From Candidatus Methanoperedentaceae archaeon (GTDB lineage: Archaea > Halobacteriota > Methanosarcinia > Methanosarcinales > Methanoperedenaceae), in contig PQAS01000011.1 in the NCBI GenBank assembly GCA_003104905.1, positions 1-56,092 of the forward strand: a stretch of DNA of 56,092 nucleotides, read 5' to 3'. This document shows, piece by piece, positions 1,662 to 55,522 of the stretch. Position 1 is the stretch's first letter; each line of letters starts with the position of its first letter. The notes under the pieces were generated by a model, which was not told the origin of the DNA, searched no databases, and saw only the letters and a list, made by a program, of their open reading frames with translations. Made by a program: the position numbers and the translations under genes.

Positions 1662-3629
1662 ATGAATGGAGTTAAAGCCATATTACTGGTTGCACTGGTT
1701 TTGATCTCGCTAAAGGCAGGAGCAGCAGCTGAGGATCCAGTGAGTTCAGCAGCCGGAGTTATTACAAATTTTTCCAAGGATAAAATAACCCGTGATGCAG
1801 TCAAGACTGAACTTAGCAATAAATACGCAGCAGGAACGCTAACCAGAGAAGACCTGAAAAAAGTTATAACTGCAGCTTACAATCATAACCTTCTCAAAAG
1901 AGAGGACTTGAGATGGCTGCTTGGCGAAATGTATAAAGAAGGAAAGCTAACCAGGGCAGACCTAAAATGGATTCTTATTGAGGCCCATAAAAACAATGAG
2001 CTGACCCGGGAAGACGTGCGGTTTATAATCGCACAGGCATACAAGAACCAGGAGCTCACAAGGGCAGACCTCAAGTTCCTTATTACGGAATCATATAAAG
2101 CCGGTGACCTCAAGCGCGAGGACATCGCGTGGCTGATAACCCATTCATACAAGAACGGGGAATTTACTCGTGACGACATGAAATGGCTCATCATGGAAGC
2201 TTACAAAGCAGGAGAGCTCACGCGCGACGACATCCGCACGATAATCATCGTTTCATACAATCATGGCGAGCTAAAGAGGGATGACGTGAAGTGGCTTCTC
2301 ATGCAGGCATACAAGAATAAGGAGCTCACGCGTGAGGATGTACGCACCCTTATCACAGCAGCGTACCGAAATGGTGAACTCACGCGGGCTGATGTCAAAT
2401 GGCTCATTGTAGAATCATACAAAGCAGGAGAACTTACAAGGGACGACATGAGATGGATCCTGCTCGAAGCCGTCAAGCAAGGGGAACTGCGAAAGTCAGA
2501 TGTCATTTGGATTATCAAAGAAGCTTACAAGACAAATGAGCTTACAACCTCTGACATTACCGAACAGGAAATAAACTCTGCCTCTGTAGAAAAGGAGCCT
2601 GCAGATGTACCAAGCATTGAGGAAATAAAAGAACCTAACGCAGGAACAGCATCAGAAGCCACTACACCTGGGACATTTGATGAAGAAAGTGCTGCTGCAC
2701 CCGCAGACTCAGTAATAAAAACAAAACAGGCCATGATGCTCTACAAGTATGCCCTGTTACCTGTCGAGAAGAACAGGATCGGTATGGAAGCAATTATCGG
2801 TTATGTTGAATCAATCGGTAAAGACACTTCGAAACTTGTGACTTCGAAGGATAGGTTCGTTTCCCTTGCAAACGAACTCAATAAAGCTGCCCAGAACAAT
2901 GATTATCAGGGCGGCAAGAGCATAATCTCACAGATGAAAGACACGGTGACAGGCTTCAGGACCGAAACGAAATCGATCGTGGCAGGGAATGAATCAGGCG
3001 CAAGAGCGGCTTTAAACGCCAGTCTTGAGGCGAACAGCGACTATTTCGATTCTCTCGTGACGCAAGCCCGCGAAGCCAGAAAAGACAGGAACCTTGAGTT
3101 CTTTGACCTTTCCGTAGCGCGCGCTCAGGGAAGGATGGATAAGGCAAAGGGGAATGGTATCGATGTAAGCGCCCTTCAGGCCAAACTTGATGAGATAAAG
3201 GAGCTTCGAACGGATCTTGTGGACGCAATGAACGAGGGTATCGCTGCATGCACGGGGGAAGGTATCGGAAAATGCACGAAACCTGAAGTTGAGGCATATA
3301 AGACAACAAGAGAAGAGATAATGAACAAGTACAAAGAACTTGTAGAACTTGCAAAAACAACAGGACAGAACCAGAGGTACGCTTCTGCGATAATACGTGC
3401 AAGAGACATTATCGCAAAGGGTGAAAAGATTCTGAGTGACGCCCAGAATCGCGGTATGGATGTGTCGTCTGAAAAGGCGGGACTTGATGAAATAAAGGGT
3501 CTTGTGGATTCGGCAGAGTCCAAATACAAGGCAGGAGACTTTGAAGGAGCCGGGCAGGATCTCAGGAATGCACAGGAAAAGTTCAAAGATCTCAGAAGTA
3601 AAGCAGTTTCAAGGAGGAATACAAAATGA
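1662..3629 (+). CDS. Exported protein with fourteen 18-residue helical repeats
   Basis: The 655-residue product starts with a signal peptide (hydrophobic residues 6-22, ending in AGAAAED). Residues 41-292 form fourteen consecutive 18-residue repeats with consensus ELTRxDVKWLIxEAYKxG, without indels. A fifteenth, partial repeat follows. An acidic linker (about 300-355) leads to a long, mostly helical, charged region (about 360-655). The phase (L-T-R-x-D, a hydrophobic helix, then YKxG) suggests a solenoid of short helices, perhaps binding metal through the Asp/Glu turns; that is inference. A strong Shine-Dalgarno (AAAGGAGG, about 1646) fixes the ATG, and a TATA-like ATTTAAATATTTT lies at about 1607. 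The gene overlaps the following lipoprotein gene by 4 bp. I do not recognise a named family. Confidence 0.85.
   Translation: MNGVKAILLVALVLISLKAGAAAEDPVSSAAGVITNFSKDKITRDAVKTELSNKYAAGTLTREDLKKVITAAYNHNLLKREDLRWLLGEMYKEGKLTRADLKWILIEAHKNNELTREDVRFIIAQAYKNQELTRADLKFLITESYKAGDLKREDIAWLITHSYKNGEFTRDDMKWLIMEAYKAGELTRDDIRTIIIVSYNHGELKRDDVKWLLMQAYKNKELTREDVRTLITAAYRNGELTRADVKWLIVESYKAGELTRDDMRWILLEAVKQGELRKSDVIWIIKEAYKTNELTTSDITEQEINSASVEKEPADVPSIEEIKEPNAGTASEATTPGTFDEESAAAPADSVIKTKQAMMLYKYALLPVEKNRIGMEAIIGYVESIGKDTSKLVTSKDRFVSLANELNKAAQNNDYQGGKSIISQMKDTVTGFRTETKSIVAGNESGARAALNASLEANSDYFDSLVTQAREARKDRNLEFFDLSVARAQGRMDKAKGNGIDVSALQAKLDEIKELRTDLVDAMNEGIAACTGEGIGKCTKPEVEAYKTTREEIMNKYKELVELAKTTGQNQRYASAIIRARDIIAKGEKILSDAQNRGMDVSSEKAGLDEIKGLVDSAESKYKAGDFEGAGQDLRNAQEKFKDLRSKAVSRRNTK
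1782..2537 (+). repeat. Fourteen 54-bp coding repeats
   Basis: Fourteen units of exactly 54 bp (18 codons) lie in tandem inside the exported-protein gene. The protein level is well conserved (L-T-R-x-D and A-Y-K-x-G), whereas codons vary between units, so the array is old and kept by selection on protein shape. Confidence 0.85.
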
Positions 3630-3863: not shown

Positions 3864-6536
3864 CTAGATTACTTTTCTCAATATGTTCTCTACTAAACCC
3901 AGGGGACCAACAGTACCATTGAGGTGATAGGCTGGGGCATTTGGGACACCAGGGGTAGACGGGGCATGACATGTTTTGCATGTGGTCATACCATGCATAA
4001 AATCACCTTTGATAAGTGAAGTGTTTGTTACATTTACTATACCGGTGCTGTTTATATGGCAGCTTTCACACAGGTAAACATAGCTTCGGTTCATATCCTT
4101 CTGATAGTGACAGGTCCAGCAATCATCATTCGTCACATTCCCTGCACCGTTACTGTTATTAATTTTTCCATGACGTCCAAATAAGGAAATATTAACATCC
4201 TTCTCAGAATGGCATGCAATACAATCAGTTCCTCCTGCAGATGTGACTCTATGCGGATCACCATGGCATTCAAGACACTGGGCTGGCGTATATTGGGCAA
4301 ATATAGATTCTTTGATCGGATGGTTGACAGGAGCTGTTGTGTGGCAATTCTTGCAATCCTTTACAACAATATTGTGCATTGCATCGTGGCACATCCTGCA
4401 CTGGACATCAAGAGATCCATCATTGTTGGTATCCGCATGCGCAAAACCCGGATTCCAATCAGGGATTTGATCAGTGGTTGAAGCGTTTCCAATTCCATTT
4501 GCGTTATGGCAGCTATTGCAATCGGGTATTTTGATTATCGGTTTTCTTTCTATTGGATAATTGCTGGATATAGTATAATTTATCCTGGCTTCCTGCCACT
4601 CGGTCAGCTTTATGATCCATGTTCCAAAGTATGGATTCGGAATTGTCATATTAATTGGTGACTCAAGGTTCTGGGCAATATCACATGGATTACCGCCGCA
4701 TGGCCCCTGTAGTGCTGTCGTAGTATTATCCACCGGGCCAATAGCATATAGTTCGATTATTTGTGCGGTATTATCTCCATTTACAGTTATTGTCAGGTTA
4801 CCCGGCCCGTTCACATTTATTATATAGGTGTCTGTAAAAGATTCATAAGACGTGAAACTCGGCGAATAATTTCCAAGGCTTCCCTGCAATTGATATTGGT
4901 CATGTGGTATTTCCGGATAAGCCAGTGAGCCATGACAATACTCACATGTTAGTTTTTCATGTGTACCTGTGGAAAAATCTATGTTCGTACCATAAAGAGT
5001 ATAACTTCCGATATTTGTTGTATCGGTTCCGGCATTATCATGGAGGAAAGATGTGTGGCATTGTACGCATGTGGTTGCGGTTACATGGGATTGTACATTA
5101 TACGACGGCTGCGGATAATACATTCCCTGAAGGAAACCACCATCATGTCCGAATTTCATTTCGTGAACATGCATTGGATTTGCTGTCAATTGAGGTCCCA
5201 TAAAAGGAGGTGAGCCTCCATAAAAGCCGCGTGAACCACTATGACATAAGAACGTACAGGATTGCATGCCGCCTCCGTCCCCATGAACAAGGCTTGTTTC
5301 AACACCAGCCTGTCTCTTATTATGGCAATTCTGGCACCCAAAGATAGTGGTCTGGAATTGTGTACTGGCAGTAACCTGGGAACCATTAATAATAGTTTCA
5401 AGTGTCACAGAATAGTTGCCTGAGTACTGTTCTGCAAAGGGATCGAATTTGAAATAACCAAGGTATGTTCCCGGATGATTAATGTCTTCCTGTAAATTTA
5501 TTTGCTGCATATGTGATGTATATTGCAGGGTTGTTGCTGATGTAAGTGGATCTGTTGGATTAATAAGCGTTAGATGCGGATAAGAGACATTGATATTGAG
5601 CATTCTGGCTGGAGTTTCAGCATCATCACTGAATATAGTCGTAGTTCCTGAAACAACATTGATGTCATCCACATACCAGCCTTCATCATTTGTATAATCA
5701 TCGGATTTAAACTTGAAGCCTAGGAATATCCTGTTTCCTGCATAAGGTGCCAGGTTCATAGTTTCCTGTACCCATCCACCACTGCTCCCGGTTATCCCAT
5801 TTCCAAGGTTGTTGCCATTCGGATTCGAAGTTGTTGTAAGAGTTCCGGGAAGATTGTCCCAGACGTTTCCATTCAATGAAACAGCCACATAACCGTAATC
5901 CCAATCCGTTTCCATTGCATACCATGTCCTGAAGGTAAGCTCTGCATTTGAATATGATGTAAGATCCACTACTTTTATCATCCATATTTCAATCTTGTCG
6001 GAATAATTGGTTTGAGTCGTAATAGGAGAAGGCGCAGTGTCAGCTTTGTAACTGTAGGATCCACTATATTTTCTAAAGCTTGCCTGCGGCCAGGTTGGAT
6101 ATGAGGTCAACCCCGGAACAGGTTTTCCTGTAGTTTTATCCAGGATCATGAGATTTATGATGTTTTTTTGTTTTTCTGTTCCGAATTCACCTACATCCCA
6201 CCATGACCAGCCGTTTCCTCCCCCCCTGAAGAATGGACCGAGCTGATAAGGTGTTTGTCCGATTGAAAGGATTGCTGTATAATTGGAGACTGCCATTGAA
6301 TTAAAAATCGGATCATTTGTGGGTGGAAAAAATTTCTGTTCAGGCGGTGGAGAAGGAAAGTGACATCCACTGCATTCCGGATCCGATATATTCCCTGTTA
6401 CATTCGTATGCACAGATTGGACCGATACTGCGGATGCAGCGCCCATGAAAAAAATCAATATAAAACTACATATAATTAAAAATCCTTTCGTCATATTCCC
6501 ACAATTAAGGTTAAAGAGCACTATCCTGTTTCTCAT
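3864..6536 (-). CDS. Multiheme c-type cytochrome 1 (13 haem sites, inserted beta-sandwich domain)
   Basis: This is an 890-residue secreted cytochrome with an N-terminal signal sequence (KGFLIICSFILIFFMGAASA). It has twelve CxxCH haem-attachment motifs plus one longer CxxxCH (CTFLCH). A segment of about 168 residues near 145-312, ending in DEGWYVDDINV, resembles the beta-sandwich found in immune inhibitor A/MAM-like proteins and is absent from the neighbouring paralogue. A PPC-like beta domain (FTDTYIINVNGPGNLTITVNG) lies mid-protein. The last 130 residues are shared by all five cytochromes. No C-terminal anchor is seen. It probably carries electrons outside the membrane. ATG 6536 matches the paralogue's N-terminus; GTG 6545 and ATG 6494 are alternatives. 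Confidence 0.9.
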   Translation of the reverse strand: MRNRIVLFNLNCGNMTKGFLIICSFILIFFMGAASAVSVQSVHTNVTGNISDPECSGCHFPSPPPEQKFFPPTNDPIFNSMAVSNYTAILSIGQTPYQLGPFFRGGGNGWSWWDVGEFGTEKQKNIINLMILDKTTGKPVPGLTSYPTWPQASFRKYSGSYSYKADTAPSPITTQTNYSDKIEIWMIKVVDLTSYSNAELTFRTWYAMETDWDYGYVAVSLNGNVWDNLPGTLTTTSNPNGNNLGNGITGSSGGWVQETMNLAPYAGNRIFLGFKFKSDDYTNDEGWYVDDINVVSGTTTIFSDDAETPARMLNINVSYPHLTLINPTDPLTSATTLQYTSHMQQINLQEDINHPGTYLGYFKFDPFAEQYSGNYSVTLETIINGSQVTASTQFQTTIFGCQNCHNKRQAGVETSLVHGDGGGMQSCTFLCHSGSRGFYGGSPPFMGPQLTANPMHVHEMKFGHDGGFLQGMYYPQPSYNVQSHVTATTCVQCHTSFLHDNAGTDTTNIGSYTLYGTNIDFSTGTHEKLTCEYCHGSLAYPEIPHDQYQLQGSLGNYSPSFTSYESFTDTYIINVNGPGNLTITVNGDNTAQIIELYAIGPVDNTTTALQGPCGGNPCDIAQNLESPINMTIPNPYFGTWIIKLTEWQEARINYTISSNYPIERKPIIKIPDCNSCHNANGIGNASTTDQIPDWNPGFAHADTNNDGSLDVQCRMCHDAMHNIVVKDCKNCHTTAPVNHPIKESIFAQYTPAQCLECHGDPHRVTSAGGTDCIACHSEKDVNISLFGRHGKINNSNGAGNVTNDDCWTCHYQKDMNRSYVYLCESCHINSTGIVNVTNTSLIKGDFMHGMTTCKTCHAPSTPGVPNAPAYHLNGTVGPLGLVENILRKVI

Positions 6537-6546
6537 TAATAACACA

Positions 6547-6603
6547 TCCTATCCAGACTTTTTCCTATCAAGAATAATATATTTTCAAATTCATTCCCTA
6601 TCC
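6547..6603 (-). promoter_or_regulatory. GGATAGGA boxes upstream of cytochrome 1
   Basis: On the minus strand GGATAGGA (6547-6554) lies about 10 bp before the ATG. GATAGGA (6563-6569) sits 16 bp further up and GGGATAGGG (near 6594-6603) beyond it. The same box precedes all five cytochrome genes. It could be an activator site or, for the proximal copy, a ribosome-binding sequence. Confidence 0.5.
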
Positions 6604-6725
6604 CTTTTTATTATCCTTTGATTGGCTCATTTTGAGTTTAATTTATAAGGTAATAAATCTTGTGGAAATTTTTCTCATAAAATATCTGAATGAAAAGGAA
6701 GGGAAAAACTATGAATAAAAAATAT

Positions 6726-8912
6726 CTACCAGGATTTTCCTGCAAATATTTTTTCCACAACCCCAAGAGGACCTACACTGCCATTGAGGTGATATGCCGG
6801 GGAGGCTGGGAAACCAGGGGTAGACGGGGCATGACATGTTTTGCATGTGGTCATACCGTGCATAAGATCACTTTTGATAAGTGAGGTATTTGTTACATTT
6901 ACTATTCCGGTGCTGTTTATATGGCAGCTTTCGCACAGGTAAACACCACTTCGTGACATATCTTTCTGATAATGACATGTCCAGCAGTCATTATTTGTGA
7001 CATTTCCGACACCGTCGCTAGTATTGATATCTGCATGACGGCCAAATAAAGAAATATTGACATCCTGAGAATGACATGCGATACAATCAGTGCCTCCTGC
7101 GAATGTGACATTGTGTGGATCCCCATGACAATTGAGACACTGTGCAGGCGTATATTTAGCAAATACCGGTTCCTGGATCGGATGGTTTGCCGGGGCTATG
7201 GTATGGCAATTATTGCAATCCTTTACAACAATATTGTGCATTGCATCATGGCACATCCTGCACTGGACATCAAGAGATCCATCATTGTTGGTATCCGCAT
7301 GCGCAAAACCCGGATTCCAATCCGGGATTTGATCAGTGGTGGAAGCGTTTCCAATTCCATTTGCGTTATGGCAGCTATTGCAATCGGGTATCTTGATTAT
7401 CGGTTTTCTTTCTATTGGATAATTGCTGGATATAGTATAATTTATCCTGGCTTCCTGCCACCCGGTCAGCTTTACGATCCATGTTCCAAAGTATGGATTC
7501 GGAATTGTCATATTAATTGGTGACGTCCGGGCAATATCACATGGATTACCGCCGCATGGCCCCTGTAATGCTGTTGTGGTATTATCCACCGGGCCAATAG
7601 CGTATAGTTCAATTATTTGTGTGGTATTATCTCCATTTACAGTTATTGTCAGGTTACCCGGTCCGTTCACATTTATTATATAAGTATCTGTGAAGGATTC
7701 ATAAGACGTGAAACTCGGCGAATAATTTCCAAGGCTTCCCTGCAATTGATATTGGTCCTGTGGTATTTCCGGATAAGCCAGCGAGCCGTGACAATACTCA
7801 CATGTTAGTTTTTGATGTGTACCTGTGGAAAAATCTATGTTCGTACCATAAAGAGTATAGCTTCCGATACTTGTTGTATTGGTTCCGGTATTATCATGGA
7901 GGAAAGATGTGTGGCATTGCACACATGTGGTTGCGGTTGCATGGGATTTTATATTATATGCTGGCTGTGGATAATACATTCCCGCAAGAAAACCACCATT
8001 ATGTCCATATTGCATTTCATGGACATGCATTGGATTCGCTGTTAATTGAGGGCCCATAAAAGGAGGTGAGCCCCCATAGAAGCCGCGCGAACCGCCGTGA
8101 CACACGAACATACAGGATTTCATACCGCCCCCGTCCGCATGGGCAAAGCTTGTTTCAACACCGGTTAATTTCTTATTATGGCAGCTCTGGCATCCCAGTA
8201 CCGTGGTCTGGAACTGTCCATTGGCTATAACCCGGGAGCCGTTAATAATAGTATAAAGTGTCACGGAATAATTACCTGAGTACTGTTCCGTGAAAGGATC
8301 ATATTTAAAAAAACCGATGTATGTTCCCGGATGATTAATGTCTTCCTGTAAATTTACCTGCTGCATATTAGTTGAATATTGCAGGATTGTTGCAGGTGTA
8401 AGCGGATCTGTTATATTTATGAGCGTTAAATGCGGATAAGAAACATTTACACTTAACGTGAGCCCTGTAACAGTTTTTGCGGTGGATTTATTCAGGATCA
8501 TTAAAGATATGAGATTTTTCTGTTTTTCATTTCCATAATTATCTGTATCCCACCATGACCAGCCGTTTCCGCCCCCTCTGAAAAATGGACCCAGCTGATA
8601 AGGTGTTTGCCCGATTGTAAGGATCGCAGTATAATCAGAAACAGCCATTGAATTAAAAAAAGGAATGTTAATTTTTGATATAAAGTCTTGTTGAGAGTAG
8701 TCTCGTTGAGAGTAGTCTTGTTGAGAATAGTCCGGTTGGGATGTCAAATGACATCCGCTGCATTTCGAATCAGAGATTTTACCTGAAATATTTTCATGCA
8801 TATTTGTGATCGCATATGAGGAAGGAATAGAAAATAATAAAATCAATATCGAAATTATTAAAAATCTATACAAAAAATTTCCATAAATATGTGATATTGT
8901 TATGTTTCCCAT
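6726..8912 (-). CDS. Multiheme c-type cytochrome 2 (13 haem sites)
   Basis: This 728-residue secreted cytochrome has twelve CxxCH motifs and one CxxxCH (CMFVCH), in the same order as cytochrome 1. From about residue 165 the two proteins are almost identical over long stretches, and the DNA of 7071-8060 closely matches 4209-5200, so this is a recent duplication or gene conversion. It lacks the inserted beta-sandwich of cytochrome 1 and instead has a short repeat near residues 65-80 (DYSQQ, DYSQR, DYSQQ) after the first haem. The signal peptide is FLIISILILLFSIPSSYA. The C-terminus ends in the module shared by all five. Probable role: extracellular electron conduit. Confidence 0.9.
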   Translation of the reverse strand: MGNITISHIYGNFLYRFLIISILILLFSIPSSYAITNMHENISGKISDSKCSGCHLTSQPDYSQQDYSQRDYSQQDFISKINIPFFNSMAVSDYTAILTIGQTPYQLGPFFRGGGNGWSWWDTDNYGNEKQKNLISLMILNKSTAKTVTGLTLSVNVSYPHLTLINITDPLTPATILQYSTNMQQVNLQEDINHPGTYIGFFKYDPFTEQYSGNYSVTLYTIINGSRVIANGQFQTTVLGCQSCHNKKLTGVETSFAHADGGGMKSCMFVCHGGSRGFYGGSPPFMGPQLTANPMHVHEMQYGHNGGFLAGMYYPQPAYNIKSHATATTCVQCHTSFLHDNTGTNTTSIGSYTLYGTNIDFSTGTHQKLTCEYCHGSLAYPEIPQDQYQLQGSLGNYSPSFTSYESFTDTYIINVNGPGNLTITVNGDNTTQIIELYAIGPVDNTTTALQGPCGGNPCDIARTSPINMTIPNPYFGTWIVKLTGWQEARINYTISSNYPIERKPIIKIPDCNSCHNANGIGNASTTDQIPDWNPGFAHADTNNDGSLDVQCRMCHDAMHNIVVKDCNNCHTIAPANHPIQEPVFAKYTPAQCLNCHGDPHNVTFAGGTDCIACHSQDVNISLFGRHADINTSDGVGNVTNNDCWTCHYQKDMSRSGVYLCESCHINSTGIVNVTNTSLIKSDLMHGMTTCKTCHAPSTPGFPASPAYHLNGSVGPLGVVEKIFAGKSW

Positions 8913-8944
8913 CGAATACCCCTTCCTCAGTCGGATTAGTATTA

Positions 8945-8969
8945 CTATCCTGATTTATTCTTCCTATCC
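8945..8969 (-). promoter_or_regulatory. GGATAGGA boxes upstream of cytochrome 2
   Basis: Minus-strand GGATAGGA at 8962-8969 and GGATAG at 8945-8950 lie 19 bp apart, 33-57 bp before the ATG at 8912. Here the box is too far from the start to act as a Shine-Dalgarno, which favours a DNA-level role. Confidence 0.5.
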
Positions 8970-9041
8970 TAATCATTTTCCTTATCATAATGATTGCTTT
9001 GTTTACGTTTAGTTTTTAGTGGCAATAAAACTTGCGTAAGC

Positions 9042-10622
9042 TCAGGATATTTTTCTTAATACGTTCTCTACTGTTCCCAGGGGACCAGCAGTACCTTTTT
9101 GATGATAACCGGATGGAGCATGACAGTTTTTGCATGTGGTCATACCGTGCATAAGATCACTTTTGATAAGTGAGGTATTTGTTACATTTACTATTCCGGT
9201 GCTATTTATATGGCAGCTTTCGCACAGGTAAACACTACTTCGTGACATATCTTTCTGATAATGACAGGTCCAACAATCATTGTTTGTAACATTTCCCGCA
9301 CCGTCGCTAATATTGATATCTGCATGACGGCCAAACAAAGAAATATTGACATCCTGAGAATGACATGCTATGCAAAGGATGCCATTTACTGATGTAACTG
9401 TGTGTCCATGTTTATCCTGACCACCATGACATTCCAAACATATCGAATTATTGTTTTTTTCCAGTGTTGTAAAACTATGGGAAGGTAATGTCGGCCCTGA
9501 TAGCGACTGTTCTCCCGTTAGGGCATGGCAACTTGTGCAATAAGGTTCAGAATTCCAGACATGTAGTCTGCTGCCTTCATTTATGATTATTTCTACCGCC
9601 CCCCCATTATAATTAATCGTATAATTGGCATCTGTATGGCATATTAGGCAGCCCTTGCTATTTACCGGTAAACCTGTAGTTGTATCGTTGACAAGGCTGC
9701 CATGAACGCTTGAGTTAATTTTTCTGCCAATATCTGCTATATGTCCATAGCTATCAGGGGGGACCAAATAATCATATGAATAATGGAAATTTGGATATCC
9801 TATCCAGGGTTGATCCATGTTCACAGCCCCGTTATGGCAATCCGTACACTTTGTAACACTTAATTCATGAGATTTAAGACCAAAGCCCCAAATACCATGG
9901 CATACCCCGCAATTAAAACTATTATAATAATTGTTCTCCCTCATAAGCCCCTGATCTCGAACTACCTTTGAGTGACAATTAAGACATATATGGTTAGGAT
10001 TTCTATCACTCCCTGTGGCGCCAGGATAACCCCCGGAAGTGAATGGATTTGAATGTCTTGAATAGAATTTTCCATCAGGAGGATCGGCAAATTGTGGTTG
10101 ATATTCACCCAACCCGACAAGAGTATCCTTTTTATGTGTCATGTTCTGTCCTGAGGGTGCTTCACCAAGAGAATATCCTTCAACGATTTCCTGACCTGTT
10201 TTGGGCGCAGGGTATGTGTTCCCCGAAGTCAGATGAGGTGGGGGAATGTCATTATCCCTCCCATGACACTCAATGCAGCCATAAGGATTTGTGGTTTTGT
10301 CCGGATGGCCGACTGGTTCGGTTCCATCTGATTGGTGACAACCCCAGCATATCCTGTTATCAGCACGTAATTCAGGAGAAACTATCGCATCAAAGTTGAG
10401 ATTGCGATGCACGGTACTGTTCAAATAAGCAACATTTATTGTTTTATTGCTAATTCCACCCGTGTCATGACAATTTATGCAGTCAGGACCTCCTGTTATA
10501 TCCAGATTATTTTGTACGTCAGCATATGACGGTCCAATAGCAACCAGATATAATATTAGATACAAAATGCAATTGAAGTGGAATATTCCATTAATTTTAT
10601 ATATATATTTACTATTATCCAA
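9042..10622 (-). CDS. Multiheme c-type cytochrome 3 (13 CxxCH)
   Basis: This 526-residue secreted protein has thirteen CxxCH motifs (CINCH, CWGCH, CIECH, CLNCH, CGVCH, CTDCH, CLICH, CTSCH, CLECH, CIACH, CWTCH, CESCH, CKNCH). The N-terminal 390 residues differ from cytochromes 1, 2 and 4. The last 110 residues, from DVNISLFGRHADI to LGTVENVLRKIS, are the common module. The signal sequence is hydrophobic (FNCILYLILYLVAIGPSYA). No ATG fits: the best start is TTG at 10622, with GGATAGGA 11-18 bp upstream. It has no anchor. It likely works with the neighbouring cytochromes in a haem chain outside the membrane. Confidence 0.88.
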   Translation of the reverse strand: MDNSKYIYKINGIFHFNCILYLILYLVAIGPSYADVQNNLDITGGPDCINCHDTGGISNKTINVAYLNSTVHRNLNFDAIVSPELRADNRICWGCHQSDGTEPVGHPDKTTNPYGCIECHGRDNDIPPPHLTSGNTYPAPKTGQEIVEGYSLGEAPSGQNMTHKKDTLVGLGEYQPQFADPPDGKFYSRHSNPFTSGGYPGATGSDRNPNHICLNCHSKVVRDQGLMRENNYYNSFNCGVCHGIWGFGLKSHELSVTKCTDCHNGAVNMDQPWIGYPNFHYSYDYLVPPDSYGHIADIGRKINSSVHGSLVNDTTTGLPVNSKGCLICHTDANYTINYNGGAVEIIINEGSRLHVWNSEPYCTSCHALTGEQSLSGPTLPSHSFTTLEKNNNSICLECHGGQDKHGHTVTSVNGILCIACHSQDVNISLFGRHADINISDGAGNVTNNDCWTCHYQKDMSRSSVYLCESCHINSTGIVNVTNTSLIKSDLMHGMTTCKNCHAPSGYHQKGTAGPLGTVENVLRKIS

Positions 10623-10632
10623 ACCCGATACA

Positions 10633-10640
10633 TCCTATCC
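10633..10640 (-). promoter_or_regulatory. GGATAGGA box upstream of cytochrome 3
   Basis: A single minus-strand GGATAGGA, preceded by AAAAAGG, lies 10 bp before the TTG start. A partial copy (GGATAAT) overlaps the start codon. Confidence 0.45.
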
Positions 10641-10671
10641 CTTTTTAATCATATGTAAGGTTAAATTGATT

Positions 10672-12933
10672 CTATTTAAATTTTTCCAATATTCTCTCCA
10701 CACGTCCAAGAGGACCTACATCGCCATTGAGGTGATAGGCCGGGGCGGTTGGGAAACCAGGGGTAGACGGGGCATGACATGCTTTGCATGTGGTCATACC
10801 ATGCATAAAATCACCTTTGATAAGTGAAGCGTTTGTTACATTTACTATACCCGTGCTGTTTATATGACAGCTTTCGCACAGGTAAACATTGCTTCGCAGC
10901 ATATCTTTCCTGTAGTGACAGGTCCAGCAGTCATTATTCGTGACATTTCCGACACCATCGCTAGTATTAATATTTGCATGGCGTCCAAATTTGGAAATAT
11001 TCACATCATCTGGTGAATGACATGCGATGCAATCGGTGCCTCCTGCGGATGTGACCTGATGCGGATCTCCATGACAATTGAGACATTCTGCAGGCGTATA
11101 TTGGGTAAATAACGGCTCCTGGATCGGATGGTTGATCGGGGCTATTGTATGGCAAGTGCGGCAGTTTTTAACCGTTATGTCGTGCATCGTATCATGACAC
11201 ATCCTGCATTGTATGTCAGGAGCGCCATCATTGTTGGTATCCACATGGGCAAATCCGGGAGACCAATCCGGGATTTGATCTGTTGTAAATGCTCCATTTG
11301 ATGCACCTGAGTTGTGACAATCATTGCATTCAGGTATCTTCGGAAGATTTTTCCTTTCTATGGGATAAGTGGATTTTATAGTATAGTTTATCGGGGCCTG
11401 GAGAATTCCTGACCATGTCCATCCGCCATTTATCAGGTCATAGCCATAGACTTCCAGTATCCATTCACCCGATAAGGGTGTATTATTTGAAAATTTTTCA
11501 GGCTTGTTTGTAAAAGTCGAACCATCGTAATATGGATAATCTCCTTTATTCGGACTAAGTGGCGTAGAGCGGTTTTTTGGATTAAAATTCGGAGGATAAA
11601 GATAAAATCCGATATTTGATGTTCCTTCCCAGTCAAATGACAGGTTCAGTGGTCCCCCCTGTGTTGTATTGATAACATAGTAATCGCTAAATTGCTGTAA
11701 GCTGGCAAAAGAGGGAGCGTATGCATTAATCGTATTACTGATTGTGTAATTGTCCAGCCTGTAACCTCCCGAAGGATTCGGCGGCATGAGGTCATTATGA
11801 CAATCCTTACAGGAAAGACTTATGTGCGTACCGCCGTTCAATTCTGCAGTCCCATGGTTGTATTGAGGTAACGGTGCATTATTAAAACCGCCCCGGGTAA
11901 AAGATACTCCATTGAATGTCTGAGGATCCAGGCTTTTATTTGTATGGCAATCAATGCATTCGATATTCCTGTGAGCTGTGTTCTGGTGGGGATTTCCCGC
12001 ATCTGTACCATCGTGCGTTATTTGTGTTATACCGTGGCAAAGATAACAGGCTGAATCCATGTCACGAGGTACGATGATCTGATTTGTCCTGTGCTGGTTT
12101 CCACTTCCATGGCAGTCTTCACATCCCCATGGTGTTACTTCGAAGCTGGTCTTTGCTGTCGTTGTTTTGCCATCTGCTATTGCAGTAATTATGGCAGTAT
12201 AGTTTCCCGGGAAATATCCCACCTTTGTGTCAGTCCCACCATAATAATATGTGAGATGACATCCATCACAAGAGCCCATATCGCTTCCTGAATAGTCCGT
12301 ACCCCCATAGAAGTAGAAGTTCCCACTATATAATCCGCTTCTGCTAATATCCTCTATGAGTTGAATCTGCGATGTATGATTTGAATAACTTATTCCATTA
12401 TATGTCCAGAACGTAATATTGGAAGTGACCTGAGCACCAGTTATGGGACTGCTATTATTGCCGCTATCAAGAAGCAGCGCATATATTTTATTTCGTTGGG
12501 TTACAGTTTCGAGGGGCGTAATGAAACCACTGGCTGGAGTCTCATCAAAAAATGTCCATCCCCAGCTTTTGTCTGTGCTCGAATCACCAGAGGCATTCGG
12601 CCCATATATTCCCTGCTGATACCAATTTTGTCCTGAACTGGTTATGAGGGTAATATTTCCAATAACCCCGGATGATGAAAACGACTGAAAATTATCCGGC
12701 ATAGATTGAAGTTTCTGGAAAATGCCGGATTGAGTGGTTTCAGGTTTTAAAACTTTATGTGTTTGGTGGCATTTTAAGCAATCAATGTTTCCGGTTTCAT
12801 TTTTAAGACCGTTATGTATATCACTGATTGCATACGTCGGTGATATTAAGATAATCAATATAAGCAGCGCGCAGTGAATCCTGAGAAAAGCAATCCTTAA
12901 CTTTGTACATTGTTCAATATCCAGCCTATCCAT
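10672..12933 (-). CDS. Multiheme c-type cytochrome 4 (14 CxxCH)
   Basis: This 753-residue secreted cytochrome has fourteen CxxCH motifs. Its layout parallels cytochromes 1 and 2. An N-terminal beta-rich region with the first haem (CLKCH) is followed by haems 2-6, then a PPC-like beta domain (FSDYYVINTTQGGPLNLSF) and the YPIERK linker. A C-terminal block of eight haems ends in the shared module (DCWTCH, LCESCH, TCKACHAPS). The signal peptide is LLILIILISPTYA. The start ATG at 12933 has a true Shine-Dalgarno (AAGGAGA) six bases upstream, next to a GGATAGGA-like box, so the box is not needed as ribosome site here. The gene is more diverged from 1 and 2 than these are from each other. Confidence 0.9.
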   Translation of the reverse strand: MDRLDIEQCTKLRIAFLRIHCALLILIILISPTYAISDIHNGLKNETGNIDCLKCHQTHKVLKPETTQSGIFQKLQSMPDNFQSFSSSGVIGNITLITSSGQNWYQQGIYGPNASGDSSTDKSWGWTFFDETPASGFITPLETVTQRNKIYALLLDSGNNSSPITGAQVTSNITFWTYNGISYSNHTSQIQLIEDISRSGLYSGNFYFYGGTDYSGSDMGSCDGCHLTYYYGGTDTKVGYFPGNYTAIITAIADGKTTTAKTSFEVTPWGCEDCHGSGNQHRTNQIIVPRDMDSACYLCHGITQITHDGTDAGNPHQNTAHRNIECIDCHTNKSLDPQTFNGVSFTRGGFNNAPLPQYNHGTAELNGGTHISLSCKDCHNDLMPPNPSGGYRLDNYTISNTINAYAPSFASLQQFSDYYVINTTQGGPLNLSFDWEGTSNIGFYLYPPNFNPKNRSTPLSPNKGDYPYYDGSTFTNKPEKFSNNTPLSGEWILEVYGYDLINGGWTWSGILQAPINYTIKSTYPIERKNLPKIPECNDCHNSGASNGAFTTDQIPDWSPGFAHVDTNNDGAPDIQCRMCHDTMHDITVKNCRTCHTIAPINHPIQEPLFTQYTPAECLNCHGDPHQVTSAGGTDCIACHSPDDVNISKFGRHANINTSDGVGNVTNNDCWTCHYRKDMLRSNVYLCESCHINSTGIVNVTNASLIKGDFMHGMTTCKACHAPSTPGFPTAPAYHLNGDVGPLGRVERILEKFK

Positions 12934-12934
12934 A

Positions 12935-13025
12935 TCCTATCTCCTTAAATATATTGGATATTGTATAATTTTATATATCCTATCCTTTTTTTAATTATAC
13001 AGAATAATTCTATCCAAATCTATCC
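12935..13025 (-). promoter_or_regulatory. Multiple GGATAG(GA) boxes upstream of cytochrome 4
   Basis: Minus-strand copies sit at 12935-12942 (AGATAGGA), 12978-12985 (GGATAGGA), 13010-13016 (GGATAGA) and 13018-13025 (GGATAGAT-like). They are spaced by about 10-40 bp. An AT-rich, TATA-like stretch lies between the first two. Confidence 0.5.
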
Positions 13026-13065
13026 AATAAAACATTGAAATGCAATCTATTTATAATTATCGTTT

Positions 13066-14940
13066 TCAATTTGTTATCTTTTTCAAAATATTTTCTACAA
13101 GTCCCAGGGGACCGACTGTGCCATTTTGATGATAACCGGACGGAGCATGGCAGGTTTTACATGATGTCATTGCATGCATGAAATCAATCTTTATAAGTGC
13201 GGGGTCTGTTACATTAACTATGCCGCTGCTATTTGAATGACAGCTTTCGCACAGATACACATTGTTCCGGTTCATATCCTTCTTGTAGTGGCATGTCCAG
13301 CAGTCATTATTCGTAACATTATTGTTACCATCGCTTGTGTTTAAGTTGGCATGACGGGCGAATTTGGAAATATTAACATCCCCGGAATGGCAACTGATGC
13401 AGTCGCTGCCCCCTCCTGCTGTTACACTATCAGAGTGGAAATCCACAGGTGCAGTACCTGTACTGACATGGCAGTTCCAGCACTCGCTATTATCGCTTCC
13501 CGTATACCAGCTATGTCTTCCCGAAGTGATCTGGGTCGCATTACCCCAGGCTTTTCTTATCACGGCATCGGTCTGGTTGTGGCAGAACACACAGTTTGTA
13601 GTGTCCGGCAGTCTATCGATCGTCTGTGTGAAATGATATGGTGTACTCCTTGAATCAGTATAGATTCGCTTGAATGCGTAAAAGCCGCCGCTTGCAGATA
13701 TATTCTTGTAGGAATTGCCGTGGCATGATCCTTCAAGAGTTGCGGCATTGAAACCAGAACATGAAGAAAATGTTTTTTCACCAGGAGATGGAGAGTATAC
13801 TGTTGACTGGTTTGGCACATTCACTGCGTCAGAGAAGTTTGTATGAGCATATACTTTGGGTATTGTTTCATTAATATCCGGCCTTGTGAAATAGTTTAAT
13901 ACCGGGCCGCTCTTATTTGAAACATGGCAATCTTCACATATTTTATATATAGTGTAATGTGTACCGTGGCATGACATACAGGCTTCATTTGTTCCGAACG
14001 GAGTGATGTCGTTATTATCGTCATCCTGCCAGTCAAATCCACTGTGGATATCATTTGGTTTTACAAGCGGTTGACTATGTAAGTCAGTTGCAGGGGTGGT
14101 ATTATGACAATTGTCGCAAAATGAATCATCCTGTGATTTTGCAGGATGTCTGATCAAATTCGCCCAGTATGCGCTTGCATTTTGTGAATTCTTATGGCAC
14201 AAGCTGCAATTTATGCTTGATCTAACAAGGTCTGTTCTTGATGCATAATGAGAAACATTAGCTGCCCGGGAAAAACCATAATCCGAAAATACCACTTTAC
14301 TTTTATCATGGCATCCTTCACAATTTGCATTTGAATCAACGAGCGCTGAATTTATTTGTTCAAAATAAGGCGGCTGGATGTGTTCGGATACTTTACTTTT
14401 GTTGATATTGGAAATTATACTTATATTTGTGAATGACAGGTTGGCGGTCCTGTTATGGCAATCTCCACATAAGTAGGGTGTTCTATAGTTTGTGGGGTGC
14501 TGACCTGTGGGTTCCGTACCATCACCATGACATGCCCAGCATGCTTTATCTATCGGGTCCAGGAGAATGGTCGAATTCACAGTGCCATTATTCAGGTTTC
14601 GATGTACGCCCTGCTTTATTGCTGAAGCGTCAATGTGTTTGGTCGCGCCTGATCCCCCCATATCATGACATAAAACACAATCTGTGCCGCCTCCTTCTGC
14701 CTGCATAATAATATTCGGTTCAATAACTCTTGATGCTGTTCCGACTTTATTCGGAATTGAACCTTCCGGTTCAATTGAAATAAAGTCACTCTTATGACAG
14801 CTTATGCAGTCATTTCCCACACCTTCAGGATGAATTTCTGATGCTCTTGCTTCTATCTCTCCACTTACAAGACTGACAGACAGCACTAGAATTTCAAAAC
14901 ATATTATACATACATATAAATTCCTTTTTATAAAGCTCAT
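13066..14940 (-). CDS. Multiheme c-type cytochrome 5 (15 CxxCH plus one CX11CH)
   Basis: This 624-residue secreted cytochrome has fifteen regular CxxCH sites and one expanded C-X11-CH (SSCSGFNAATLEGSCHG). The latter resembles the stretched haem motifs of Geobacter-type CxxxxCH cytochromes and may bind a sixteenth haem. Its N-terminal 490 residues are unlike the other four. The last 115 residues (DVNISKFARHANL to LGLVENILKKI) are the common module. The signal peptide includes CIICFEILVLSVSLVSG. It has no beta-sandwich insert or anchor. It is the most upstream gene of the minus-strand cluster, and each of the five genes keeps its own upstream region, so they are probably not one transcript. Confidence 0.9.
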   Translation of the reverse strand: MSFIKRNLYVCIICFEILVLSVSLVSGEIEARASEIHPEGVGNDCISCHKSDFISIEPEGSIPNKVGTASRVIEPNIIMQAEGGGTDCVLCHDMGGSGATKHIDASAIKQGVHRNLNNGTVNSTILLDPIDKACWACHGDGTEPTGQHPTNYRTPYLCGDCHNRTANLSFTNISIISNINKSKVSEHIQPPYFEQINSALVDSNANCEGCHDKSKVVFSDYGFSRAANVSHYASRTDLVRSSINCSLCHKNSQNASAYWANLIRHPAKSQDDSFCDNCHNTTPATDLHSQPLVKPNDIHSGFDWQDDDNNDITPFGTNEACMSCHGTHYTIYKICEDCHVSNKSGPVLNYFTRPDINETIPKVYAHTNFSDAVNVPNQSTVYSPSPGEKTFSSCSGFNAATLEGSCHGNSYKNISASGGFYAFKRIYTDSRSTPYHFTQTIDRLPDTTNCVFCHNQTDAVIRKAWGNATQITSGRHSWYTGSDNSECWNCHVSTGTAPVDFHSDSVTAGGGSDCISCHSGDVNISKFARHANLNTSDGNNNVTNNDCWTCHYKKDMNRNNVYLCESCHSNSSGIVNVTDPALIKIDFMHAMTSCKTCHAPSGYHQNGTVGPLGLVENILKKITN

Positions 14941-14944
14941 GTTT

Positions 14945-14983
14945 TCCTATCCCGAAATTTTCCATCCCTGGAATTTCCTATCC
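14945..14983 (-). promoter_or_regulatory. Paired GGATAGGA boxes upstream of cytochrome 5
   Basis: Minus-strand GGATAGGA occurs at 14945-14952 and 14976-14983 with a degenerate GGGATGGA between (14961-14968). The copies are about 16 and 15 bp apart. The proximal box is 4 bp from the ATG. Confidence 0.5.
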
Positions 14984-45389: not shown

Positions 45390-45770
45390 ATGGATCTTAA
45401 AGCCAGAAATGCTCTTATCACAATTGCATTGATATCAATCTCTATTCTAATAGGGACAATTCTTGCGCCTTCATTTTTGAACTGGGGAATAGAAAAAAGT
45501 CTACCAGTATATGGTTATGATGCTATGGATAAACCATTGCGGTTCAATCAATATCTGATAGAAGGCAACTATCTAACATCCAATCAAGAATTTATTTATG
45601 TTCAAATCGAAAATAAAACCTGGGTTATGATAGACCAGAATACCCAGAGCAGCGCCCATGGATTTAAAGTGTGCAACCATAAAGAAGGAGATAAAGTTAA
45701 GTATGCTGTTTTCGCAGAACCATTAGGAGATAACTGGAATGAATTTATTTTGAGGCGGGAACTATGTTAA
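45390..45770 (+). CDS. Element membrane-anchored or secreted protein
   Basis: A 126-residue protein with one N-terminal membrane helix (ALITIALISISILIGTILAPSFL) and an outside domain of about 100 residues (LPVYGYDAMDKPLRFNQYLIEG ... FAEPLGDNWNEFILRREL). No known domain. It is the first gene of the late region, and its stop overlaps the next start. Confidence 0.6.
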   Translation: MDLKARNALITIALISISILIGTILAPSFLNWGIEKSLPVYGYDAMDKPLRFNQYLIEGNYLTSNQEFIYVQIENKTWVMIDQNTQSSAHGFKVCNHKEGDKVKYAVFAEPLGDNWNEFILRRELC

Positions 45771-45898
45771 ACACAGAAGGATCCGTGATAAAAAAATTCC
45801 TTGTAACTACACTAGCCTGGATAATCTGGGGATATACCTGGACTCCATTGGATAAAGCAACAGAAGCAGCAACAGCAATATTGTATGGTAAACCATGA
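45764..45898 (+). CDS. Element small membrane protein, 44 residues
   Basis: MLNTEGSVIKKFLVTTLAWI... with one hydrophobic helix (FLVTTLAWIIWGYTW). It overlaps the previous gene by 7 bp and the protease gene by ATGA, so it is clearly part of the chain. Function unknown. Confidence 0.55.
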   Translation: MLNTEGSVIKKFLVTTLAWIIWGYTWTPLDKATEAATAILYGKP

Positions 45899-46278
45899 TA
45901 AAAGATATCGTTCAAATCATAATCCTAATTCTTTTACTCTATGGATGCTACACCGATCTAAAATTTCGTCATGTAAGCAATAAGATAAGCTTCAGTATTG
46001 CAGCGCTGGCACTTTTATTATTCAATCCTGAGATCCTTGCAATAAAAGGAGTTTTCATTATCTTCATGATATCATCCTGGTTTGTTCACATGATAGGATC
46101 AGGAGATGTTAAAGTATTGGCGCCATTAACCTTAATGTTCAATCAATGGCAATTTTTCATATTTTTATTCATCTTTTGCATATCAGGAAGCTTAATTGGA
46201 CTCGTAATTCATAACAAACAATATCTAATCCCAGGATTCATTCCAATCACAATAGCACTTATTTTTAGTCTGTTATAG
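45895..46278 (+). CDS. Prepilin-peptidase-like (A24) membrane protease
   Basis: A 127-residue protein with about four to five membrane helices. The two catalytic aspartates of A24 proteases are present: GCYTDLKFRHVSNKIS (first Asp) and IGSGDVKVLAPL (GxGD motif). Cellular archaeal relatives (FlaK, PibD, EppA) cut signal sequences of archaellins and pilins and are usually over 200 residues; this is the minimal core. The targets may be element envelope or pilus-like proteins encoded just downstream. Confidence 0.8.
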   Translation: MIKDIVQIIILILLLYGCYTDLKFRHVSNKISFSIAALALLLFNPEILAIKGVFIIFMISSWFVHMIGSGDVKVLAPLTLMFNQWQFFIFLFIFCISGSLIGLVIHNKQYLIPGFIPITIALIFSLL

Positions 46279-46409
46279 AAAAATACTAGCAATAGTATCA
46301 TTTTATGAATAGTTGTGCATTGATGTCTATAATCATGCATTAATGAATATATATATACATAGGTATTTATCCAAATTCCTCATTAATAATACTTTAAGGA
46401 GATGAAATT
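46279..46409 (+). promoter_or_regulatory. Promoter and strong ribosome site of the tandem membrane-protein genes
   Basis: The TATA-like GAATATATATATACATAGG lies at about 46343-46361, and AAGGAGATGA at 46396-46405 just before the TTG start. The TATA gap and good ribosome site suggest high expression. Confidence 0.55.
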
Positions 46410-46826
46410 TTGTTTGAAATGCTAAAAGAAAAAATAAAACGGAATCTGATGAAGAATAAAGCAGCAGTTGCTCTGCTCCATGTAGCTATGGCAGCAATGA
46501 CGGGGAACAAAGTACATTCGCAAAATGTAATGAATATCGAAGCAACAAAACTCACAAAGAATGCATTCCTGGGCATTGTCATAATGTCAGTCATGTCTCT
46601 TGTCGTGGGTTCAGTATTCCTTTATATCGGAATATTCGTGAACACCACAGTCTATAATGCAATTCCCACGTCAGGGATGACTGCAAGTGATAATACAACT
46701 CTGGCTGGAGTAAAGACTAACGTAAATACTGCATTCACCCTCGGCGGAATCATAATGATCGTGATCGGAGCTGCAGGTATCATATCCGTATTGCTCGGAA
46801 TGGTCCCGAATGCAACAAGAGCGTAA
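46410..46826 (+). CDS. Two-helix membrane protein, tandem copy 1 (candidate structural protein)
   Basis: A 138-residue protein with a basic N-terminus (MFEMLKEKIKRNLMKNK), a semi-hydrophobic amphipathic segment (AAVALLHVAMAAMTGNK), a first membrane helix (about 52-75, FLGIVIMSVMSLVVGSVFLYIGIF), a short outside loop of about 25 residues, and a second helix (about 105-130, GGIIMIVIGAAGIISVLLGMV) ending PNATRA. It starts with TTG after AAGGAGATGA. It is nearly identical to the next gene. Small proteins with two hydrophobic helices and tandem copies recall coat proteins of spindle-shaped or pleomorphic archaeal viruses, but pilin-like or other membrane roles are possible. Confidence 0.7.
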   Translation: MFEMLKEKIKRNLMKNKAAVALLHVAMAAMTGNKVHSQNVMNIEATKLTKNAFLGIVIMSVMSLVVGSVFLYIGIFVNTTVYNAIPTSGMTASDNTTLAGVKTNVNTAFTLGGIIMIVIGAAGIISVLLGMVPNATRA

Positions 46827-46859
46827 ACAAGGATATTCTTTTTTAAGAAGGTGAAATCC

Positions 46860-47288
46860 TTGTTTGAAATGTTGAAAGAAAAAATAAAGAGAAATCTGAC
46901 GAAAAATAAGGCAATAATGGCGATGTTGCACGTAGCCATTGCAGCAATGACCGGAAACAAAGTACATTCGCAAAATGTAATGCAAATCGAGGCAACAAAA
47001 CTCACAAAGAATGCATTCCTGGGCATTGTCATAATGTCCGTCATGTCCCTTGTTGTGGGATCAGTATTCCTGTATATCGGAATATTCGTAAATACTACAG
47101 TCTATAATGCAATCCCAGTACCAACAACCAACACCACAGCAGATTTAGAATTTAACGCTACAATGGCGGGTGTAAAGACTAATGTGAACACAGCGTTTAC
47201 ACTGGGCGGAATCATCATGATCGTGATCGGAGCTGCAGGTATCATATCCGTATTGCTCGGAATGGTCCCGAATGCAACAAGGAGCTAG
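46860..47288 (+). CDS. Two-helix membrane protein, tandem copy 2
   Basis: A 142-residue paralogue of the previous gene; both helices and the N-terminal region are almost the same at protein and DNA level. The loop differs: copy 1 has TSGMTASDN, copy 2 VPTTNTTADLEFNA. So loop variation and helix conservation mark the outer face as the variable part. It starts at TTG 46860 with AAGGTGA 5 bp before it. A frame from GTG 46851 overlaps the ribosome site. Confidence 0.7.
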   Translation: MFEMLKEKIKRNLTKNKAIMAMLHVAIAAMTGNKVHSQNVMQIEATKLTKNAFLGIVIMSVMSLVVGSVFLYIGIFVNTTVYNAIPVPTTNTTADLEFNATMAGVKTNVNTAFTLGGIIMIVIGAAGIISVLLGMVPNATRS

Positions 47289-47364
47289 ACCAGGAGCAGC
47301 ATAAAACAAATATGGACAAGGCCATAGTGGAGAACCACTAATTAATTTTTTTCTAGGATGAACC

Positions 47365-47691
47365 ATGGAATTACATATTTTTTTAACAATTTTCATATTC
47401 GGGATCGCAGTTTATTTTCTATCTACAAGGAAAGACAATACAGATCCAACAAACACCTATCAATTTCAATTGACATTTTTAAGCCTGATCACATGGGCAG
47501 CGATGGCATACAATTCCTTTAACATTCAGATATACAGCCATGACAACACACTTGCAATGAAATCATTTATAGATTATACTCTGGTCGGATTATCAATTGG
47601 ATTCCTTATTTTATCATTGCTAAATCTCATAATCCTTGGATTTGTTGGATCATGGACTGCGTTATTCAATAGAAGAAAGAGGGACAAATAA
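47365..47691 (+). CDS. Element membrane protein, three helices
   Basis: A 108-residue protein with membrane segments near 3-20 (IFLTIFIFGIAVYFL), 34-52 (FLSLITWAAMAYNSF) and 70-98 (YTLVGLSIGFLILSLLNLIILGFVGSW), and a basic tail (NRRKRDK). No known family. It overlaps the following gene by TAATG. Confidence 0.6.
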   Translation: MELHIFLTIFIFGIAVYFLSTRKDNTDPTNTYQFQLTFLSLITWAAMAYNSFNIQIYSHDNTLAMKSFIDYTLVGLSIGFLILSLLNLIILGFVGSWTALFNRRKRDK

Positions 47692-48131
47692 TGACAGAAA
47701 CTTCAGTGATTCCAGCAACTACAGCAGTTACAGCAGCTCCAGACCTAGGCGGATTGTTACGCCAGCTTTTGAATAATGATTATATCCCAAAGGAAATTCG
47801 GGAAGATTGGTGGATAACCACAAGCGATGATCTCATTCTATCTTTCCATGACAAGGATGATATCAAATGGCTGATGAACCAGATCGATCTTTTAGAATTA
47901 CGGACAATAAGAAGCCTTCCAGGACATGAATACGATATAGAAACAGTCAGGAAATTAAATCAAATAAAAATAATACTCTTTGCCAGATTGAACAGATCTA
48001 AGAACGGTGGAGAGAGAAACGCACAGATAACCAATATATCAAGCGAAGTAATAACCCAGGGAAAACCACAGGGAACAGAAGGGACAGGATTTTTTTCATC
48101 AGTCAAGAAGCTGGTAACCGGGGGCGAATAA
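47691..48131 (+). CDS. Element soluble protein, 146 residues
   Basis: Ala/Thr/Pro-rich N-terminus, then a helical core (LGGLLRQLLNNDYIPKEIREDWWITTSDDLILSFHDKDDIKWLMNQIDLLELR...). No recognised domain. It lies between membrane-protein genes of the late operon and may be a peripheral or matrix-type partner. Confidence 0.55.
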   Translation: MTETSVIPATTAVTAAPDLGGLLRQLLNNDYIPKEIREDWWITTSDDLILSFHDKDDIKWLMNQIDLLELRTIRSLPGHEYDIETVRKLNQIKIILFARLNRSKNGGERNAQITNISSEVITQGKPQGTEGTGFFSSVKKLVTGGE

Positions 48132-48192
48132 CACGGCCCTAAACCTCATCAACAACACAACAGGAGGAATACATCCTGAACCACTACAGCAA

Positions 48193-48933: not shown

Positions 48934-48934
48934 C

Positions 48935-49897: not shown

Positions 49898-49898
49898 A

Positions 49899-50309
49899 AT
49901 GATTGATAAACAATTCGAAGAAAAAATCAATTATCCTGGTCTTCTTCTATTGCAGATAAATGATATCAGGTTAGCTATACAGGCAGGAAGCACTGGGACT
50001 ATAGAACTTGAAGGGCTAGGAGTTTTAATTGCAGATGAATTATTGGAAGAAATAAAACCTGAAATAGAAAAAATCAACCTGGAATATGAAATAGAGATCC
50101 AGGAAGTTTTGAAATCCTGGACTGTTCAGACTGGACATCCTTCAAACAATACCTATAAAGTCAATATGTCTACTGGAAGACAGATACACCTCAATAGAAG
50201 ACGAGCACTGTCCAATCAGCGCATTTTGCATGTAATCATAAATACGCTATATCAGAAAGGTATGCTAATAACGAATAATGTAAACATGCCTTCAAGCCTG
50301 GTGAGATAA
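49899..50309 (+). CDS. Element soluble protein, 136 residues
   Basis: Helical, acidic first half (GLLLLQINDIRLAIQAGSTGTIELEGLGVLIADELLEEIKPEIEK...), basic C-terminal part (HLNRRRALSNQRILHVIINTLYQKGML). ATG 49899 has GGGGG upstream; ATG 49884 overlaps the previous gene. TAATG links it to the next gene. No known domain. Confidence 0.55.
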   Translation: MIDKQFEEKINYPGLLLLQINDIRLAIQAGSTGTIELEGLGVLIADELLEEIKPEIEKINLEYEIEIQEVLKSWTVQTGHPSNNTYKVNMSTGRQIHLNRRRALSNQRILHVIINTLYQKGMLITNNVNMPSSLVR

Positions 50310-52312: not shown

Positions 52313-52319
52313 GGTAGAT

Positions 52320-55246: not shown

Positions 55247-55276
55247 TATACGACAATCAGAGACTTTCCATTTATG

Positions 55277-55496: not shown

Positions 55497-55522
55497 AATC
55501 ATTTCTTAAAGATGAAGGGGCT

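Follow-up and report, generated by a model that had tools for sequence, protein, structure and literature searches.

Boxes in the leaders of multiheme cytochrome genes of a Methanoperedentaceae archaeon are complementary to the loops of predicted sibling small RNAs

Sibling small RNAs (sRNAs) with C-rich loops, such as the LhrC, RsaE-type, and Neisseria (PMC5362039) sRNAs, are known from bacteria, where several hairpins with a common pyrimidine-rich loop mask the ribosome sites of several mRNAs. In the archaeon Methanosarcina mazei, sRNA154 and sRNA41 have been proposed to mask ribosome sites by pairing, sRNA154 through a hairpin loop, while other targets are stabilized (PMC5867862). The RNAs predicted here share with the bacterial siblings the presence of several hairpins with one common loop, but they are archaeal, the loop sequence is another one, and the targets would be multiheme cytochromes. 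They resemble the M. mazei sRNAs in being intergenic, in belonging to a related archaeal group, and in their predicted pairing at ribosome sites. However, sRNA154 and sRNA41 are single genes involved in nitrogen regulation, whereas several siblings with one loop and cytochrome targets are found per genome here. The likeness is one of predicted mode of action, and there is no Rfam match. A short motif that recurs in hairpin loops and near mRNA start codons also recalls the CsrB/RsmZ sponges, whose loops carry the mRNA motif itself, whereas the loops described here carry its complement. A CsrB-like sponge was dropped, as the promoter-like sequences of the hairpins lie opposite to the GGATAGG direction. 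Finally, a TTCG-N-CGAA repeat in one small-RNA type and a V4R/ArsR-type protein in the genome are reminiscent of the redox regulator MsvR of methanogens, but one sibling type only would be under such control.

A transcriptome study reports that cytochrome clusters are strongly up-regulated on electrodes in this genus (PMC10874420). Neither that study nor the one other paper searched for them mentions sRNAs or posttranscriptional control, and no sRNA work on the genus was found in the open-licence literature. These uncultured methane-oxidizing archaea choose among dozens of multiheme cytochromes.

The window, i.e., the whole stretch of DNA that was analyzed, comprises 56,092 nucleotides and contains five multiheme cytochrome genes on the minus strand (Table 1). 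Their domain matches are to Cytochrome_C7 and related domains, and among named records, those that share these cytochromes come mainly from Ca. Methanoperedens. Cytochromes 1, 2, and 4 are paralogues, and the coding sequences of cytochromes 1 and 2 (window positions 3864-8912) have long near-identical stretches that look like a recent duplication or gene conversion. At a distance from the cytochromes, the region 45390-55783 is a run of plus-strand open reading frames, most of which are short.

The leaders of the five cytochrome genes contain six exact copies of GGATAGGA, all on the coding strand, against 0.014 expected in the sense orientation in five times 150 bp from the 107 copies in the 2.9-Mb genome (Poisson P of about 1e-14). 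The first-pass annotation had reported a box before each of the five genes, with copies often 15-33 bp apart and a position more than 30 bp from the start in cytochrome 2. All six copies are present, the spacings of 16, 19, 31, and 33 bp were recovered, and both copies before cytochrome 2 are indeed distant from its start. In contrast, the ribosome site said to be separate from the box in cytochrome 4 is not: its GGAG lies inside AAGGAGATAGGATATG and thus overlaps a box copy. Another exact GGATAGGA, at 9798, is inside the coding sequence of cytochrome 3 and is no leader copy. Comparison of the leaders with those of one relative gave a weak footprint, with 86% identity in the boxes and 75% outside. 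A TATA was placed 22-60 bp upstream of the first box in 27/41 cytochrome leaders, although this placement is unreliable. A G-quadruplex formed by the GG repeats was set aside, as a single box copy provides two GG pairs only.

Table 1. Cytochrome genes and box copies in the window, and predicted small RNA genes in the assembly that contains it (G000; contig and approximate position)
Feature	Position	Strand	Remarks
Multiheme cytochrome 1, 13 CxxCH	3864..6545	minus	likely start ATG at 6537
Multiheme cytochrome 2, 13 CxxCH	6726..8912	minus	
Multiheme cytochrome 3, 13 CxxCH, MtrC/MtrF-like domain	9042..10622	minus	
Multiheme cytochrome 4, 14 CxxCH	10672..12933	minus	
Multiheme cytochrome 5, 15 CxxCH	13066..14940	minus	
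Box copy GGATAGTG, within first codons of cytochrome 1	6519-6526	minus	GGATAG core; conserved in orthologue
Exact box GGATAGGA, cytochrome 1 leader	6547-6554	minus	conserved in G004
One-mismatch box copy TGATAGGA	6563-6570	minus	
One-mismatch box copy GGATAGGG	6596-6603	minus	
One-mismatch box copy GGATAGTA, before cytochrome 2 (-38)	8943-8950	minus	
Exact box GGATAGGA, -57 of cytochrome 2 start	8962-8969	minus	conserved in G004
Exact box GGATAGGA, -18 of cytochrome 3 start (TTG)	10633-10640	minus	
One-mismatch box copy GGATAGGC, first base(s) in cytochrome 4 start codon (ATGGATAGGC)	12924-12931	minus	
One-mismatch box copy AGATAGGA, overlapping cytochrome 4 GGAG ribosome site	12935-12942	minus	conserved in G003, G004
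Exact box GGATAGGA, -52 of cytochrome 4	12978-12985	minus	
One-mismatch box copy GGATAGAA	13008-13015	minus	conserved in G004
Box core GGATAG	13020-13025	minus	conserved in G004
Exact box GGATAGGA, -12 of cytochrome 5	14945-14952	minus	
Exact box GGATAGGA, -43 of cytochrome 5	14976-14983	minus	
Small RNA candidate	C53:31.9k		
Small RNA candidate	C42:120.5k		
Small RNA candidate	C52:15.4k		
Small RNA candidate	C53:157.7k		
Small RNA candidate	C48:23.9k		
Small RNA candidate	C50:114.4k		
Small RNA candidate	C24:19.8k		
Small RNA candidate	C55:61.0k		weakest

We asked how specific the box is for cytochrome genes in the same genome. An exact GGATAGGA was found between -150 and +30 of 8/38 genes with at least four CxxCH motifs, compared with 6/660 genes without CxxCH. 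The genes counted come from 41 stretches of the genome that add up to about 0.85 Mb and were partly picked around box hits, so that the background is inflated, if anything. The box is thus not equally frequent before unrelated genes, the outcome that the first-pass annotation had named as a refutation, and 99% of the other, noncytochrome genes lack it. The box is the mark of a subset of cytochrome genes, about a quarter of them; many multiheme genes, among them at least six large ones, have none, which counts against regulation by sRNAs. Boxed genes on other contigs include that of a 27-heme protein with an MtrC/MtrF-like domain, and weaker copies precede genes for 24- and 31-heme proteins with MtrC/MtrF-like domains. 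Contig C1 carries a short cytochrome gene (L061:4429-4989) related to chain 8e5g (E value of 3e-5), whose box runs into a strong ribosome site (GGATAGGAAAGGAGGTG). The record of 8e5g is named just "c-type cytochrome," but we take it to be the Archaeoglobus filament cytochrome; the short cytochrome is possibly an extracellular filament subunit under the same box control. On the same contig, a gene whose heme-free product contains a carboxypeptidase-regulatory-like domain (L063:6347-8038) adjoins a cytochrome gene and has a box just upstream of a likely internal start ATG.

When the genome and its relatives were taken together, GGATAGGA was the top-ranked 8-mer around the starts of multiheme cytochrome genes. 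Within 200 bp of those starts it occurs 37 times in the sense and never in the antisense orientation, and the ratio of GGATAG to CTATCC is 73:1. Its place varies, from -92 through -57 to 9-12 nt before the start for some copies, and past the start codon for others. In relatives within the genus the box in many cases sits at the start codon or spans it, as GGATAGGATATG, as AUGGAUAGGA, which encodes M-D-R, or as ATGGATAGGATA, which encodes M-D-R-I. The box keeps to a single strand, occurs before as well as after the start codon, and varies in copy number. It hence belongs to the mRNA, and these features point to an mRNA element and not to a classical operator.

Genus-wide searches, blind to cytochromes, were conducted with the patterns GGATAGGATATG and TATGGATAGGATNG, yielding 35 and 29 matches against 5 and 6 for the reversed controls. 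Apart from cytochrome starts, the matches included intergenic inverted repeats. The tandem form GGATAGGATAGG is present in 30 of the 31 Methanoperedens genomes, at about five sites each; the reversed-pattern control is uninformative for this form, which is the same sequence when read backwards. About two thirds of the distinct tandem sites read, 64 of 95, lie within a stem at or above the 95% level of shuffled flanks. Viral contigs served as a negative control: 82 occurrences of the 12-mer gave three hairpin candidates, none of them convincing, and a 14-mer scan, used solely for this purpose, returned chance matches. The predicted small RNA is a hairpin of about 45-85 nt, with a stem of 8-11 bp and a loop containing UCCUAUCCUAUCC, the complement of the box. 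About a dozen stem sequences surround this common loop. Several hairpins have the same downstream genes across genomes, with N-termini that by eye look like, for example, mutS, a 2'-5' RNA ligase, or a permease. Hairpin loci are partly homologous between genomes, and hence the counts are not fully independent.

Conservation of the structure was assessed on the GAGGA-stem family alone, as a joint alignment of all stem families misregistered the arms. Compensatory changes were found at two pairs: A-U became G-C in five sequences, and C-G became U-A in one. Pairing reached 95%, compared with 36-53% when the partner columns were slid. A covariance model of this family detected members in 30/31 genomes of the genus and in 2/3 genomes from other genera of the family, with one weak match among 26 genomes of other families. 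Thus, the hairpin family is essentially confined to the Methanoperedenaceae. The tested hairpins had no match in Rfam, either at the gathering score or at an E value of 0.1. With several gene copies in each genome, these predicted hairpin RNAs look like an archaeal family that has not been described so far, and the genome of the window contains about eight candidate genes (Table 1). Some members detected by the covariance model carry other loops, e.g., CACCCUAUCC or, in another family, CCAAUCC repeats. Like-stemmed hairpins with other loops were observed at L471, L472, L479, L480, L481, L484, and L489, where in several cases ACCACC comes immediately after the hairpin and in several another conserved stretch (AATAAACTCAAATAATTGT) lies upstream; the L489 hairpin, with CCAATCC repeats in its loop, is from another family of the order.

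We then looked at the flanks of 57 hairpins for signs of transcription. A TATA-like heptamer is present at -34 to -25 in 46/57 cases on the UCCUAUCCUAUCC strand and in 14/57 on the opposite strand (P = 2e-9), for a background of 8 to 9. An upstream element, GGGTATAAT..TGGAAAA (TTTGGGTATAATCTTGGAAAA), precedes 34/57 hairpins on the RNA strand and none on the opposite one. In the stretches of the window's own genome that were read, TTTGGGTATAATCTTGGAAAA occurs twice, both times at hairpins (L070, near 5568, minus strand; L074, near 11863, plus strand). These promoter-like sequences on the strand complementary to the box suggest that the hairpins are genes of small RNAs whose loop reads UCCUAUCCUAUCC, the transcribed strand being apparently the UCCUAUCC strand. 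A T-run follows the 3' arm in 12/57 hairpins and is never found on the mirrored side. In many hairpins, however, the U-run falls inside the loop, which speaks against the sRNA model and does not fix the 3' end of the RNA. The hairpins have too few non-Watson-Crick pairs for a strand test by G-U versus A-C pairs.

A TTCG-N-CGAA repeat was found upstream of five hairpins on the RNA strand and of none on the opposite strand. Among the sequences listed, these hairpins are of the GTGGGC-stem type, and the repeat sits between the TATA and the hairpin. It agrees with the published MsvR motif, TTCGN7-9CGAA, which by itself is insufficient for binding (PMC3729527). The window's own genome has one MsvR-type locus, with the repeat copy TTCGCATATATACGAA, and on contig C7 a V4R plus ArsR-type (HTH_5) protein similar to MsvR. 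This small RNA type may plausibly be under a redox-responsive, MsvR-type operator. Hairpins with the stem AGTGGGCA and a TTCG-N8-CGAA promoter were seen at L073 (about 2620-2722, minus strand; the candidate at C53:157.7k) and at L218, L222, L231, L267, and L298. The loop of L218 and L231 is CACCTCCTATCC, which combines a copy of the 16S anti-Shine-Dalgarno sequence with the box complement.

Pairing between loops and leaders was computed with the loop only, because stems dominate the energy and make a ranking of whole small RNAs against leaders useless. Within the window's own genome, the loop UUCCUAUCCUAUCCA forms a duplex of -16 kcal/mol or lower with 8/38 cytochrome leaders and 3/667 others (P = 5e-9); in relatives, it does so with 21/36 versus 2/33 leaders. 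Shuffled loops gave smaller mean differences. The leaders of all five cytochromes of the window are within the 11 best of about 720, and pairing with UGGAUAGGAUAGGA would extend to up to 14 bp.

Other readings of the box were weighed against pairing with small RNAs. GGA repeats are bound by CsrA- or TRAP-like proteins, and the box motif resembles them. An RNA-binding protein of that kind could recognize GGAUAGGA in the leaders, with the hairpins as decoys or unrelated, and the restriction of the box to the sense strand, its multiple copies, and its closeness to start codons would fit. Decoys, however, would need GGAUAGGA in their transcript, whereas the promoter-like sequences and the TATA put the complement there, and no candidate protein was identified, so that we hold this reading to be unlikely. 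The enrichment before a subset of cytochromes and the repetition of copies would also be expected if a transcription factor bound GGATAGGA DNA as the operator of an electron-transfer regulon. A classical operator would be seen in both orientations or would hold a set position with respect to the promoter, but the box has a single orientation (37:0) and ranges from -92 to beyond the start codon, with many copies past it; moreover, an operator gives no reason for the exact complement of the box in the loops of hairpins, and we regard it as improbable. The common regulator of electron transfer genes proposed in the first-pass annotation is therefore retained in part. A regulon of multiheme cytochromes is supported by the recurrence of the box before other large ones in the genome and the genus, but the DNA operator that was implied is not. 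As the box complement is present in the loops of predicted small RNA genes, small-RNA pairing explains the box better, and the common regulator of the boxed cytochromes is probably an RNA.

The box might instead be a variant ribosome-binding site or a translation enhancer: UAGGA matches the 3' end of the 16S rRNA of the genus (...CACCUCCUAA) by pairing, so that the signal could be partly translational, and some copies are 9-12 nt before the start. Yet complementarity to the 16S end does not extend over the whole of GGAUAGGA, copies are found at -57, at -92, and beyond the start codon, and other genes almost always do without the box; we give this possibility a low probability. A variant Shine-Dalgarno sequence was ruled out, as the match to the 16S ends of relatives (...GGATCACCTCCTAA) is limited to UAGGA and positions vary, in agreement with the first-pass view that the box is more than a ribosome signal. 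The 16S ends were taken from relatives, as no 16S rRNA gene was detected in the window's own assembly, rated 98% complete. Lastly, the boxes could be remnants of duplicated genes or could reflect a conserved M-D-R N terminus, in keeping with the paralogy of cytochromes 1, 2, and 4. We consider this very improbable, since the box also precedes less related cytochromes on other contigs (the 8e5g-like and 27-heme proteins), is found upstream as well as within coding sequences, and has its complement in hairpin loops. Homologues in relatives suggest that unrelated leaders acquired the box independently.

Thus, we favor, with a probability of roughly 0.7, the reading in which the GGATAGGA boxes serve as target sites, on the mRNA, of sibling small hairpin RNAs that set the output of some multiheme cytochromes. 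The hairpins combine, on sequence, an intergenic location with promoter-like sequences of their own, a conserved secondary structure, and complementarity to the leaders of genes at other loci, as would be expected of trans-encoded regulatory small RNAs. The siblings, encoded elsewhere in the genome, would pair by their loop with cytochrome leaders. Pairing over the ribosome site and start codon would most likely block initiation. For boxes 40-90 nt upstream of the start, as in some genes, a ribosome block is less obvious, which counts against the sRNA model; given the stabilization of other targets in M. mazei, activation might be the outcome at such distal boxes. As promoters differ between siblings, several signals, one plausibly redox, may converge on the same mRNAs.

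More tentatively, it is conceivable that ANME-2d archaea possess a posttranscriptional network in which sibling hairpins under different sensor promoters, one of them redox and MsvR-like, share or swap loops and thereby address different sets of mRNAs, the principal targets being extracellular and nanowire-type cytochromes. If so, the hairpins with other loops (CACCCUAUCC or CCAAUCC repeats) in the same and another family would represent an exchangeable loop code. A family of small RNAs whose target site is readable would provide a list of candidate regulated cytochromes and a testable redox input.
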